A stretch of 36,204 nt of DNA from assembly GCA_018648605.1 (NCBI GenBank), contig JABGQU010000012.1, positions 1 through 36,204 of the forward strand, given 5' to 3'. Both the position numbers and the translations under genes were made by a program. Positions within the stretch are counted from its first letter, which is position 1. Each line of letters begins with the position of its first letter. Positions 18,959-34,189 of the stretch are shown here, piece after piece. This DNA is from Anaerolineae bacterium. GTDB lineage: Bacteria; Chloroflexota; Anaerolineae; Anaerolineales; Villigracilaceae. A model generated the notes under the pieces. The model did no database searches and was not told the DNA's origin. It saw nothing but the letters and a program-made list of their open reading frames with translations.

Positions 18959-21736
18959 ATGAGCAAAATAACACTTAAGATAGATCACAAGAAAATTGAA
19001 GTCCCCGAAGGCAGCACCGTTCTGGATGCAGCGCGGGCGGCGAATGTTTATATTCCCACCCTGTGCGATGACCCGCTTTTAGAGCCATTTGGCGCCTGCC
19101 GTCTTTGCATTGTAGAGATTGATGGATATAGAGGTTTGCCCACAGCCTGTTCCACCCCTGCTGCTGAGGGGATGGAAGTTCATACATCCAGCCCAATGAT
19201 CGAGACAAATCGCAAAACGAGCATGAATTTATTGCTCTCCGATCACCCGCTGGATTGCCAGCATTGCGTGAGCAATATGCGCTGCGATCTACAATATGTG
19301 GCTGCTTACGTTGGCGTGCGTGGTGAAAACCCCTATAAAGGCGAACGCCGCGCTTACGATCTTGACGAGAGCAACCCCTTCTACAGCCGCGACCTTGAAA
19401 TGTGCATCTTATGCGGAAAATGCGTCCGTGCCTGCGATGAGTTACAAGGTCGCCAAGCGATCAGCTTCGGCTATAGAGGTTTCTCCACAAAAATTACAAC
19501 GCCTTTCGACCTCCCTATGTGGGACTCGACTTGTGAATCTTGTGGTCGCTGTGTGGATATGTGCCCAACAGGCGCTCTCTACGATAAAACGGCTAAAAAA
19601 CATGGTTTACCAACTGGAGAAACTAAAACAACCTGCCCCTATTGCGGTGTAGGATGTGGTTTGATTCTTGAAACCCGCGACGGCGAAATTATCGGCGCGC
19701 GCGGAGATCGAGAGAACTCGGTAAATGAAGGGCATACTTGTGTGAAAGGGCGTTATGGTTGGGAATATGTGCAACATGCCGACCGTGTGAAGAAGCCCCT
19801 TGTCCGCAAATATTTGCTTGAGGGCAAGAAAAAGTCAGAGATAGACAGAAGCTCATCGAATTGGGAATGGGCAGAAACAAGCTGGGATACAGCATTAGAG
19901 ATCACTGCCAGCAACCTGACCCAAATCCGCGATCGTCACGGTGCCGATAGCATCGGCTTTATGACTTCGGCAAAATGTCTGAACGAAGAAAATTATCTAG
20001 TGAATAAACTGGCGCGACAGGTCATAGGAACCAATAATATTGACCATTGCGCCCGGCTCTGACACTCTAGCACCGTGGCCGGTCTGGCCACCACGTACGG
20101 TTCAGGCGCAATGTCCAACTCGATGGACGATATCGCCGAGAAAGCAGAAGCCTTTTTCATTATTGGCTCAAATACGACAGAGCAGCATCCCGTTTTCGGG
20201 ACAAAATTACGCCGCGCCATTCAAAAACGGGGCGCAAAGCTAATCGTCGCCGACCCGCGTCGGATCGATATTACTGACCTAGCAACTGTCCACTTGCAAC
20301 AGAAAGCGGGCACAGATACCGCGCTGATCAATGGGTTGAGTTATCTGATCCTGAAAAATGGGCATGAAGATACAGCCTATATCGCTGAACGCACAGAAGA
20401 TTTTGAAGAATATCGCAAAGTTATCCAAAATTATCCGCCTGAAAAGGTAAGCGAGATCACAGGCGTGCCCGCAGAACTGCTGCACGAAGCTGCCGAGATC
20501 ATGGGCACGCACAAACCTATGGCCCTTATGTGGGCAATGGGCATCACCCAGCATATTAAAGGCGTGCGCAATGTGATGGCCTTGGCGGGGCTGCAAATGT
20601 TGCTCGGCAATATTGGCGTACCCGGTGGCGGCACAAATCCGCTGCGCGGACAAAATAACGTTCAGGGCGCTTGCGATTTGGGCGGTTTGCCCAATGTTTA
20701 CCCGGGCTATCAACCCGTGACCGGTGAATATGTTCAGGAAAAATTCATCGAGGCTTGGGGCGCTGCACCGGAGATGAAAGTTGGGAAAACGCTCACTGAA
20801 ATGATTCCCGACGTTCTCAAAGGGGAGACCCACGCCCTATTTATTCTCGGCGAAGACCCCGTCATGTCTGACCCCGACACCAAACATATCCGTGCCAATC
20901 TCGAAGCCTGCGATTTTGTCATTTTGCAGGAACTTTTCGAATCAGAAACCGCTCCCTATGCGGATGTCCTGCTCCCCGGCGCATCTTTTGCCGAAAAGAC
21001 AGGCACTTTCACCAATACAGAGCGACGCGTGCAGATGGTTCGACAAGCGATAGCCCCAGTTGGGGATTCTCTTCCCGATTGGCAGATCATTTCATCCCTG
21101 GCAAAGCGGATTATCGCTCTTAGCCCCAACTTGCGCTCGTTAAATACACCTTTCTCTGGCTGGGACTATGAAGACACATCCGCCATCATGGATGAAATTT
21201 CAGCCCTAACGCCCCAATATGCGGGGATCAGCCACGAACGTCTCGAAAATGGCGAACGTTTACAATGGCCTGTGCCAGATAAAACCCACCCTGGAACACC
21301 AATCCTGCACGTTGGACGATTTGCTCGCGGCAAAGGCAAATTTATGCCCATTGAGCATGTTCCGCCTGCCGAATCTCCCGACGATGAATATCCCTTCATT
21401 ATGTCAACGGGACGGGTGCTCTATCACTGGCATGGCGGACAAATGACTCGCCGAGTGGAAGGGATCATGGAAGTCTACGGAGAAGCGCTCGTAGAAGTCA
21501 ATCCAATAGATGCCGCCAACCTAGATATTAACGGAGACAACGGCATCCGGCTCACATCACGCCATGGCAGCATCGAAACAAAAGCCTGGGTCACCGATCG
21601 TGTTCCCCCCGGTATGGTTTATGCCAACTTCCACTTCCCTGATGCTTCAGCGAATGAGCTAACCCATGCTTCACTTGACCCTGTAGCGAAAATACCAGAA
21701 TATAAGGTTACGGCTGTGAAGGTTGAGAAACTATAG
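18959..21736 (+). CDS. Selenocysteine-containing formate dehydrogenase catalytic subunit (UGA at 20060-20062 read as Sec368)
   Basis: One 925-aa gene that looks split by an in-frame TGA. Order: N-terminal [2Fe-2S] domain (C36, C47, C50, C64), His/Cys [4Fe-4S] site (H96, C100, C103, C109), two ferredoxin-like clusters (C149-C159, C192-C202), then the Mo/W-bisPGD core with its own [4Fe-4S] (C226, C229, C233, C261). The TGA lies in HCARL-U-HSSTVAGL, aligned with the active-site selenocysteine of E. coli FdhF (CARVUHGPSVAGL), and the next residue is the conserved catalytic His. The frame continues without loss to the C-terminal molydopterin-binding domain. A SECIS-like hairpin follows at once. 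It oxidises formate to CO2 (or reduces CO2), passing electrons to the NuoE/NuoF-like pair. Confidence 0.95.
20060..20101 (+). promoter_or_regulatory. Bacterial SECIS-like element of the formate dehydrogenase
   Basis: Starting at the UGA, a perfect 6-bp stem GTGGCC/GGCCAC (20075-20080 with 20086-20091) closes the apical loop GGTCT (20081-20085). The GGTCT loop begins 18 nt after the UGA, the same place and sequence as in the E. coli fdhF SECIS as I recall it. The hairpin would recruit SelB-Sec-tRNA. Confidence 0.85.
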
Positions 21737-31152: not shown

Positions 31153-31623
31153 CTACGCACGCTCGTATTTACCTTTTACAACAAGCTTTCGTTCGCCATT
31201 GTCCTGAGCTTCATAGATCTCATAAACCAGTTCAATGGGCATCACCTTATCCAACATCGCCTGAGCGGGGCAATAACGATCTGCCGAAAGTTGGACGGCG
31301 CGAAGAACAGCAGCTTCGTCAATCCCATGCCCCGTTACTTCATACGTTATAGTAGCTTGCGTAAAAACATGTGGGTGTGCATCTGCCTGACCAACATTTA
31401 CCTTCACTTCGTAGGCGGTGATCTCCTGTCGTTTTTTACGCATAATCGAGATCACATCCATCGCTGTGCAGCCAGCTAAACTGATTGCCATTAACTCCAT
31501 TGGACGGAATCCGTCATTCTCGCCACCAACGCTGGGCGCAGCCCCAAGCGGCACTTCAAAACCGGTAGCAGCCGTCCCGGAGAACGTCATCCCATGATCC
31601 CAAGTTACTTTTGCATCCATCAT
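31153..31623 (-). CDS. OsmC-family peroxidase-like protein
   Basis: A 156-aa OsmC/Ohr-like protein. Two cysteines sit at the usual peroxidatic places: C52 in SLAGCTAMDVISIM and C118 in DRYCPAQAML. The motif ISLAGCTAMDVI is closer to the OsmC/YhfA subgroup than to Ohr. It would reduce organic hydroperoxides using thiol reductants. AGGAG precedes two adjacent ATGs; the second (31620) has the better spacing. It is the last gene of the sigma-linked thiol-redox group, 15 nt after the TlpA-like gene. Confidence 0.9.
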   Translation of the reverse strand: MMDAKVTWDHGMTFSGTAATGFEVPLGAAPSVGGENDGFRPMELMAISLAGCTAMDVISIMRKKRQEITAYEVKVNVGQADAHPHVFTQATITYEVTGHGIDEAAVLRAVQLSADRYCPAQAMLDKVMPIELVYEIYEAQDNGERKLVVKGKYERA

Positions 31624-31638: not shown

Positions 31639-32253
31639 TTAGCCATCACCCTGAATAACCGGCGTCACATGTTTTTCAAGCATCGCCTGGCTGATAGCAC
31701 CTGTCCATGCTAAACGGACAACTCCATTGCGATCAATCACAAAAGAAGCAGGCAAACTATAAGAGCTAAATGCCAAGCCAGATTCGCTGTCTTCATCGAT
31801 CCAAACAGGATAAGTCAGCTTATTTGTTTTCAAAAAGGCTTCGACCGTTGCAGCGGGTTCACCATAATCAATACCAACAATCACAAACCCCTCATCGGCA
31901 TGATCTTCATAATATTGTTGCAATACAGGTAATTCTTCTTTACAAGGCGGACACCAGGTTGCCCAGAGATTCACAAGAATAATTTTCTGTCCTTCGTAAT
32001 CCGACAAGCTTACTTTCTCACCTGCCAGGTTGGTCAACTCCAGTTCAGGGGCATCATATTCCACAGACATAGGAATAGAAGAGTACTCTTCTGGCGCTGC
32101 ACCCTGTGCAGATTCACTTTTTGGCAACACAAAAAGCGCTGCAACACCGATCAAGACCACGCCAACCCCAACCGCGATCATACCAACAGGTGGAACAGTT
32201 TTCTTTTTTAAATCTCTCTTAGTGCTACGACGAGAAGGTTTTTTCTTTTCCAT
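31639..32253 (-). CDS. Membrane-anchored TlpA/ResA-like thioredoxin
   Basis: A 204-aa protein with a basic N-terminus (KKKPSRRSTKRDLKKK), one transmembrane anchor (about residues 22-43) and an extracytoplasmic thioredoxin domain. The active site WATWCPPC gives C101 and C104; the cis-proline segment is YSLPASFVIDRNG. Such proteins reduce extracytoplasmic disulfides, for example in cytochrome c maturation. Here the neighbours point to general thiol-redox or stress duty. It lies 15 nt before OsmC and 77 nt after the glutaredoxin gene, with a hairpin in that gap. Confidence 0.92.
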   Translation of the reverse strand: MEKKKPSRRSTKRDLKKKTVPPVGMIAVGVGVVLIGVAALFVLPKSESAQGAAPEEYSSIPMSVEYDAPELELTNLAGEKVSLSDYEGQKIILVNLWATWCPPCKEELPVLQQYYEDHADEGFVIVGIDYGEPAATVEAFLKTNKLTYPVWIDEDSESGLAFSSYSLPASFVIDRNGVVRLAWTGAISQAMLEKHVTPVIQGDG

Positions 32254-32330: not shown

Positions 32331-32582
32331 TTATAAGCCAAGCAAGCGATCAATTTTCGGCCGATCAAATCCGACGATAACCTTGCTACCGATATGGATT
32401 TGGGGTACTCCCTGTTGACCGCTACGCCGAACCATATCTCGGGCAGCTGCCTGATCCCGTGAGACATCTACCTCTCGAAAAGGGATCTGCTTACTACGGA
32501 AATATTGTTTGGCTTTACGGCAGTAACTACATGTTGGCGTTGAAAACATAATCACGCGTGGATATTTCTTATTGTCTGCCAT
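32331..32582 (-). CDS. Glutaredoxin-like protein
   Basis: An 83-aa single-domain glutaredoxin/NrdH-type protein: strand VIMFSTPTCSYCRKAKQYF with redox pair C18/C21, then the GVPQIHIGSKVIVGFD segment with the cis-proline. The DVSRDQAAARDMVRRSGQQGVPQ helix is typical. It lies 14 nt downstream of the selenocysteine oxidoreductase and is surely cotranscribed with it. It uses ordinary cysteine, unlike its neighbour. Confidence 0.93.
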   Translation of the reverse strand: MADNKKYPRVIMFSTPTCSYCRKAKQYFRSKQIPFREVDVSRDQAAARDMVRRSGQQGVPQIHIGSKVIVGFDRPKIDRLLGL

Positions 32583-32596
32583 AAAAAACCTCGTAC

Positions 32597-33259
32597 TTAT
32601 TTCATAATTCGCTTTAATTCAGCGAGCATATTGCTTTCGGGTACTGCGCCAACAATATTAGCAGCACCATCATTGATAGTTGTTTGCGGCACACCGCTAA
32701 CATTATATTTATTCGACAAAGCCTGAAACTCTGTTGCTTCCACCATCTCAGCCTGAACCATCGAGCTTTCCATTGCAAATTGATGAGCGAGCGTCACGGC
32801 TCGCGGGCAATAGGGTCAGGTAGGGGTAACAAATACCTGCATAAGAACAGGCTCTTTCAGACCCTTAAGAAAATCTCGTGTATCCTGAGAGAGACCTGAG
32901 TCTCGACCAGAAACGAGCAAAATATCTTGAATAAGCGAAGTAAATTCATGCCCCGAGGGGATACCTGCAAAACGGACTCCAAAATCGGAAACGGTATCGC
33001 CATCTTTCGCAGCGATCACGACTCCAGGAGCTTTGTCTACGTTATATTTTGCTGCAACATCAGCATCATCTTTGAGATCATATAATTCAATACTCAACTT
33101 GTCTGAAATCGCAACAACTTCTTCAAGAAGTTGCTGGGTATCAGCACAATAAACGCAGTCTTCTTTCTCTCCAAAAAACAGGATGTGAACAGATTCTTTC
33201 ATGGGAGCAAAAGCATCTGCGATCTGTTTCACAACATCTGCATTTAATAAGGTTGTCAT
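32597..33259 (-). CDS. Selenocysteine-containing protein disulfide oxidoreductase (glutaredoxin-like, two thioredoxin folds; UGA at 32816-32818 read as Sec148)
   Basis: A 220-aa gene interrupted by an in-frame TGA. The protein has two thioredoxin folds, as in archaeal/bacterial protein disulfide oxidoreductases (PDO). Domain 1 has C35-V-Y-C38 and the loop DKAPGVVI; domain 2 has VFVTPT-U148-PYC151-PRAV and the cis-proline loop VSGVPQTTI. The TGA replaces exactly the attacking Cys of the usual CPYC motif, and the frame then runs to the normal C-terminus. A hairpin follows at the same distance as in the FDH gene. The ATG has AAGGAG. It follows the anti-sigma gene after 64 nt and precedes glutaredoxin by 14 nt. 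Predicted cytosolic dithiol/selenol reductase. Confidence 0.92.
32787..32818 (-). promoter_or_regulatory. Bacterial SECIS-like element of the PDO gene
   Basis: On the minus strand the UGA (32816-32818) is followed 11 nt later by a perfect 6-bp stem GCGAGC/GCTCGC with loop CGTGAC. The loop lies 18-23 nt after the UGA, matching the position in the FDH element (19-23). Confidence 0.75.
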
Positions 33260-33323: not shown

Positions 33324-33581
33324 TCACTTTTCTTCTTGAATAAAATCTTCCAGGCTAAGCCGATGAAAAAGGCGTTCTCGCACTTCTGCAGGGATCAAGG
33401 TTTGCGCCGCGGTTTCATGATAGAGATAAATTGTTTTTTTCAGTGTATCAACAACAACACGGCAATTGCCACAATCTTCAATATGGCGTTCGATCTCTTT
33501 GCACAGAGTATCTCCTAAAACACCATCTACATAATCTGATAATTCTTCAAGGAATGCATCACAATTTATATCGTTCCTCAT
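33324..33581 (-). CDS. Soluble zinc anti-sigma factor, RsrA-like
   Basis: An 85-aa cytosolic anti-sigma factor with no transmembrane segment. The ZAS motif is H33-x3-C37-x2-C40 (HIEDCGNC). C7 lies 26 residues before the His, and C27 six before it. This copies the spacing I recall for RsrA of Streptomyces (C11, C31, H37, C41, C44), the redox-sensing partner of SigR, with a uniform shift of four. The start ATG overlaps the sigma stop codon by one base (TGATG), so the two are cotranslated. It should hold the sigma factor until oxidation forms a disulfide and releases zinc. Confidence 0.87.
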   Translation of the reverse strand: MRNDINCDAFLEELSDYVDGVLGDTLCKEIERHIEDCGNCRVVVDTLKKTIYLYHETAAQTLIPAEVRERLFHRLSLEDFIQEEK

Positions 33582-34189
33582 CAGATTTTCTCCTGACCTA
33601 ATCGTTCACCATAATATGCTGAAAGCATTTCGCGTAATTTCAAACGGGCACGTAATAATCTCGTTTTTATGGCTGTCTCTGTGAGCTCAAGCGTTTCGCT
33701 TGTCTCACGAATGGAAAGCCCTTCAAGGTCTCGCAAAATAAAGACGATCCGTAATTTCTCTGGTAATTTGTGAATAGCTTTATCCAAATGATTTTGTGCT
33801 TCAGATGACATCAACTCACCCTCTGGCAAACAACACCAATCCGTGAACGAGGTTAAAAGAAGATCATCATCAGTATCTTCATTCTCGCCGTTTTTGAGCG
33901 TTATATCAACTTCAGGCTTTGCGCGGCGAATAGTCATCAACGCTTCGTTAACTGCAATTCGATAAAGCCAAGTCGACAAACTGGAGCGCCCTTCAAATTT
34001 TGGCAAAGCCTGCATCGCCTTTAGAAAGGTATTTTGAAGAACGTCTTCAGCATCTTGCGGGTTAGATAACATTTTCAACGCAAGACGATATATTTTTGTC
34101 GAATATGCGTCCACAAGGCGAGCCACTTCGGCTCGATCTCCAGAACGCAGTAGCTGCAAAGAAAATTCTTGCAGATCATTCTCATTCAT
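33581..34189 (-). CDS. ECF RNA polymerase sigma factor (sigma-70 region 2 and 4)
   Basis: A 202-aa ECF sigma factor. Region 2 spans about residues 24-90 (IYRLALKMLSNPQDAEDVLQ, FLKAM, STWLYRIAVNEALMTIRR) and region 4 about 135-190 (LPEKLRIVFILRDLEGLSIRE, TETAIKTRLLRARLKLRE). An acidic linker (NGENEDTDDDLL) joins them. Its partner anti-sigma is encoded directly after it with overlapping codons. The genes that follow (Sec-PDO, glutaredoxin, thioredoxin, OsmC) suggest that it controls a disulfide-stress response, as SigR does. Upstream are both a housekeeping-type promoter and a candidate self-recognised promoter. Confidence 0.94.
   Translation of the reverse strand: MNENDLQEFSLQLLRSGDRAEVARLVDAYSTKIYRLALKMLSNPQDAEDVLQNTFLKAMQALPKFEGRSSLSTWLYRIAVNEALMTIRRAKPEVDITLKNGENEDTDDDLLLTSFTDWCCLPEGELMSSEAQNHLDKAIHKLPEKLRIVFILRDLEGLSIRETSETLELTETAIKTRLLRARLKLREMLSAYYGERLGQEKI

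Follow-up and report, generated by a model that had tools for sequence, protein, structure and literature searches.

Does the TGA that interrupts an oxidoreductase gene on the minus strand of this Anaerolineae contig end the protein, or is it read as selenocysteine (Sec)? The gene occupies positions 32597-33259 of the window (the whole stretch of 36,204 nucleotides that was analysed), and its minus-strand translation is a single open frame whose sole internal stop is a TGA at 32816-32818, codon 148, with the residues VLMQVFVTPT-*-PYCPRAV around it. The frame stays open to a TAA at 32597-32599, giving a coding region of 32600-33259 and a product of 220 aa, including a predicted Sec at residue 148, the first residue of a UPYC motif. 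Translation thus bears out the original prediction, which had placed an in-frame UGA within VFVTPT-U-PYCPRAV and followed the frame to its normal end. We put at roughly 96% the probability that the gene product is a Sec-containing protein disulfide oxidoreductase (PDO) of the TIGR02187 family, with UGA recoded as Sec148, a reading that rests on sequence comparison. The mechanical list of open reading frames shows the gene as two pieces (32816-33259 and 32597-32797), just as had been foreseen for gene callers, and an annotation that takes UGA as a stop leaves the PDO gene truncated or split.

The read-through protein matches the NCBIfam model TIGR02187 (PDO_seleno_TRX) with 275.3 bits over residues 8-217, the curated cut-off being 185 bits. 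Its best matches of solved structure are 1j08 and 1a8l, with E values of about 1e-42 over some 200 residues, and their CPYC motif aligns with UPYC; judged from these matches, the architecture of a PDO with two thioredoxin folds is settled. Together with 2ayt and 2ywm, these Cys-type PDO/glutaredoxin-like proteins, whose hosts are hyperthermophiles, share with the Anaerolineae protein two fused thioredoxin folds (about 200 residues aligned, E values down to 1e-42), but have Cys at the second site where Sec is predicted here. The N-terminal domain of AhpF, which also consists of tandem thioredoxin folds, is a weaker match (E about 1e-10) and is part of a flavoprotein, whereas the protein described here stands alone. 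The first thioredoxin fold carries a CVYC motif (Cys35-Cys38; 33146-33157, minus strand) in which both cysteines are invariant in the alignment. In an alignment of 13 sequences, all four columns of C35xxC38 and U148xxC151 are conserved and P191, within a GVPQT segment, is invariant; this segment is likely the cis-Pro loop that had been anticipated in the C-terminal part, with P191 as its cis-proline.

A search of 100 genomes, made up of the one that holds the window plus relatives, gave a PDO match in 55. The closest named relatives are 'Candidatus Desulfolinea nitratireducens' and drafts labelled Anaerolineae or Anaerolineales; no homologue of the PDO gene was found in viral contigs. Among the 50 homologues that were read as loci, codon 148 is TGA in 27 and TGC or TGT in 23; within the window's genus, all nine genomes carry TGA. 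This nearer set was extended with named genomes, counting distinct genes only, to 111 homologues, in which the codon is TGA 32 times, TGC or TGT 79 times, and never anything else. Since the column is held by TGA or a Cys codon alone in so many distinct genes, the presence of TGA lies far beyond chance. The TGA-type genes of relatives each contain just one internal stop, invariably TGA. The family match and a column restricted to Sec and Cys codons, with TGA kept throughout the genus, uphold the original proposal of a PDO-family selenoprotein with UPYC as its second site.

Immediately 3' of the TGA lies the perfect 6-bp hairpin that had been noted there, GCGAGC-CGUGAC-GCUCGC (32787-32804, minus strand), a putative bacterial SECIS element whose stem is GCGAGC/GCUCGC and whose loop, CGUGAC, starts 17 nt past the TGA. 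The bSECIS model limits the loop to 3-9 nt, the stem to 4-16 bp, the distance from UGA to 16-37 nt and the MFE to at most -7.5, and demands a G within the first two loop positions (PMC13188914); the hairpin, with a 6-nt loop, a 6-bp stem, a distance of 17 nt, -10.9 kcal/mol and a G at loop position 2, lies within these limits. Compared with shuffled sequences, the window's own hairpin reaches a z of only -1.5 to -1.9, and an Rfam search of the hairpin region gave no match, so that the case for a SECIS rests on the comparison across genes. In the nearer set, the inner five pairs are present at fixed register in 27/27 Sec genes and in 0/23 Cys genes; in the 111-gene set, they are present in 31 of the 32 TGA genes and in 3 of the 79 Cys genes. 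The sole TGA gene that lacks the fixed-register hairpin (L117) has a shifted equivalent, CCAGG-CGGUCGU-CCUGG, and two genes (L101 and L125) show a compensatory pair change from CGAGC/GCTCG to CAAGC/GCTTG. A score for the best free hairpin also parts Sec from Cys genes (p=1e-12), but many Cys genes hold some hairpin too, and we therefore prefer the fixed-register count.

The same region is constrained below the level of the protein. Comparing codons for the same residues, we found a synonymous entropy of 0.4-0.7 bits in Sec genes versus 1.8-1.9 in Cys genes at codons +5, +6, +7 and +9, whereas the synonymous freedom of codons +10, +11, +12 and +14 is alike in the two groups. Three hairpin codons are nearly invariant in Sec genes (GCC in 30/32, GTG in 30/32 and CTC in 29/32) and free in Cys genes, and loop positions 2-3 are G-U in 30 of the 32 Sec genes. 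For the signal that recodes UGA in the Chloroflexota PDO, comparison across genes gives unusually clean evidence.

The means to insert Sec, which the original prediction had called for, are all encoded in this genome: selA (547 bits), selB (334 bits), selD (351 bits) and a tRNA-Sec (selC) with the anticodon TCA (UCA), each above its curated cut-off. Two TGA-bearing drafts (G003 and G020) have no detected selA, their completeness being just 85% and 88%, respectively. Over 50 genomes, the presence of selA shows no significant association with the Sec form (Fisher p=0.39); it fails to part Sec from Cys genomes because nearly all relatives own selA, and most the Sec machinery.

Three other accounts of the TGA have to be set against these data. 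A single-base change turns TGC or TGT into TGA, and the assembly is a draft in 211 contigs, so a Cys codon might have become a nonsense codon in a pseudogene or through an error of sequencing or assembly; yet every genome of the genus has an identical TGA, as do 32 of the 111 distinct homologues, the frame past it and the active site are fully intact, and the synonymous constraint on the hairpin is confined to TGA genes. The conservation of the TGA rules this account out, and we leave it a probability close to nil. The same hairpin constraint bears on the idea that UGA serves as a programmed stop and that the C-terminal part is made separately from a GTG at 32797, yielding two proteins. Both pieces do appear in the list of open reading frames, but the second would begin past the active site and so be without it, and a hairpin constrained in TGA genes alone, together with the Sec machinery, is explained by recoding and not by termination; we have rejected such an internal start as very improbable.

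Altered codes for UGA occur in other lineages, and the codon could in principle be decoded here as Trp, Cys or Gly. The anti-sigma gene of the same cluster, however, terminates at AAG TGA, which indicates that the cluster also uses TGA as a normal stop and that the genetic code has not been reassigned. Since, in addition, all other homologues have Cys at this column and the genome has a full Sec machinery, we reject a code change, whose likelihood we consider negligible, and retain the recoding of UGA as Sec148.

In a maximum-likelihood tree of 111 proteins, built with the Sec/Cys column masked and with a bootstrap that was not fully settled, the Sec/Cys label needs 13 changes on the best tree, and at least 8 are forced by strongly supported branches alone; a single Sec clade is rejected (p-AU 0.0001). 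These changes may reflect either losses of Sec or horizontal exchange. Switches also occur within genera, between L064 (Sec) and L062 (Cys) in genomes G019 and G040, and between L038 (Sec) in G045 and L039 and L044 (Cys) in G055 and G026. In two Cys genes (L067 and L079), the loop of the SECIS and the 5' side of its stem persist (CGA GCC GTG), which suggests a recent change from Sec to Cys and makes these sequences possible relics of Sec loss. We lean towards the view that the PDO active site in Anaerolineae has exchanged Sec and Cys no fewer than 8 times, and probably some 13 times as on the best tree, within genera and despite retention of the Sec machinery, and that the SECIS hairpin appears or decays alongside each switch, possibly by the exchange of a UGA-plus-hairpin segment between alleles. 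The gene would then be a compact natural experiment on the gain and loss of a selenoprotein, and repeated switches in close relatives offer a test bed for the contribution of selenium to a thiol oxidoreductase.

During translation, the hairpin just 3' of the UGA would recruit SelB with selenocysteyl-tRNA(Sec), so that UGA would be decoded as Sec148 and the full 220-aa protein made. Cys PDOs and the N-terminal domain of AhpF provide a model for the attacking and resolving residues of the second site; by analogy with them, Sec148 may attack substrate disulfides or peroxide-derived intermediates and Cys151 may resolve the selenenylsulfide. Electrons would be supplied by a flavin thioredoxin reductase to the first CxxC.

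All neighbours of the PDO gene that we consider here are on the minus strand. Upstream are genes for an ECF sigma factor, the likely regulator of the cluster (33581-34189), and a zinc-finger anti-sigma factor with a ZAS motif, H-x3-C-x2-C (33324-33581); downstream are genes for a YruB-type glutaredoxin-like protein with a CSYC motif (32331-32582), a TlpA/ResA-like thioredoxin with a CPPC motif and an N-terminal hydrophobic stretch (31639-32253), and an OsmC-family protein (31153-31623). Its position behind the ECF sigma/zinc anti-sigma pair suggests that the PDO cluster is probably induced by thiol or oxidative stress. The arrangement resembles the actinobacterial SigR/RsrA thiol-stress regulon, in which thiol oxidoreductase genes likewise adjoin those for a sigma factor of the ECF type and an anti-sigma factor with H-x3-C-x2-C, but the anti-sigma factor here is no more than RsrA-like, with 38.3 bits against the RsrA model TIGR03988, under its cut-off of 62.5. 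The sigma/anti-sigma pair (33324-34189) marks a candidate thiol-stress regulon of Anaerolineae. Most relatives, with Sec and Cys forms alike, have such a pair close to the PDO gene, and the neighbourhood of sigma factor, anti-sigma factor, PDO and TlpA recurs with both Sec and Cys forms. This likeness counts against the suggestion that Sec alters the redox partner, of which we see no sign.

The protein had also been called a hidden selenoprotein, which overstates the case, as the family has been listed since 2006 and the NCBI model bears the name PDO_seleno_TRX. Zhang et al. (2006, PMC1794560) predicted UxxC selenoproteins of TIGR02187 in Carboxydothermus and Symbiobacterium under the name 'homolog of AhpF N-terminal domain (Grx-like domain protein)', and the family is also found in reviews of 2022 and 2026 (PMC9312934, PMC13188914). 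These proteins, of which ABB15282.1 is an example, share with ours the NCBIfam family, the UxxC motif type and a single Sec, and differ in their hosts, ours being Anaerolineales (Chloroflexota). In the literature searched, which was covered in part, we found no published report of a TIGR02187 selenoprotein in Anaerolineae. The Anaerolineales PDO is a very well supported addition to a known selenoprotein family, not new in kind, and extends this predicted family to a large, mostly uncultured group of Chloroflexota.

In-frame TGA codons are found in other genes of this genome as well. The selD gene (contig C75:25113-26045 of the window's genome, G000; L009) has one of its own, like known Sec-containing SelD proteins. 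On the plus strand of the window, the gene for a formate dehydrogenase alpha subunit (18959-21736) has a TGA at 20060-20062 in the context CARL-U-HSSTVAG, and its read-through product matches TIGR01591 with 802 bits; on this sequence evidence, it is a second selenoprotein of the window. A possible stem, GTGGCC-GGTCT-GGCCAC, lies 12 nt past this TGA, although the free fold of a longer segment favours another structure.
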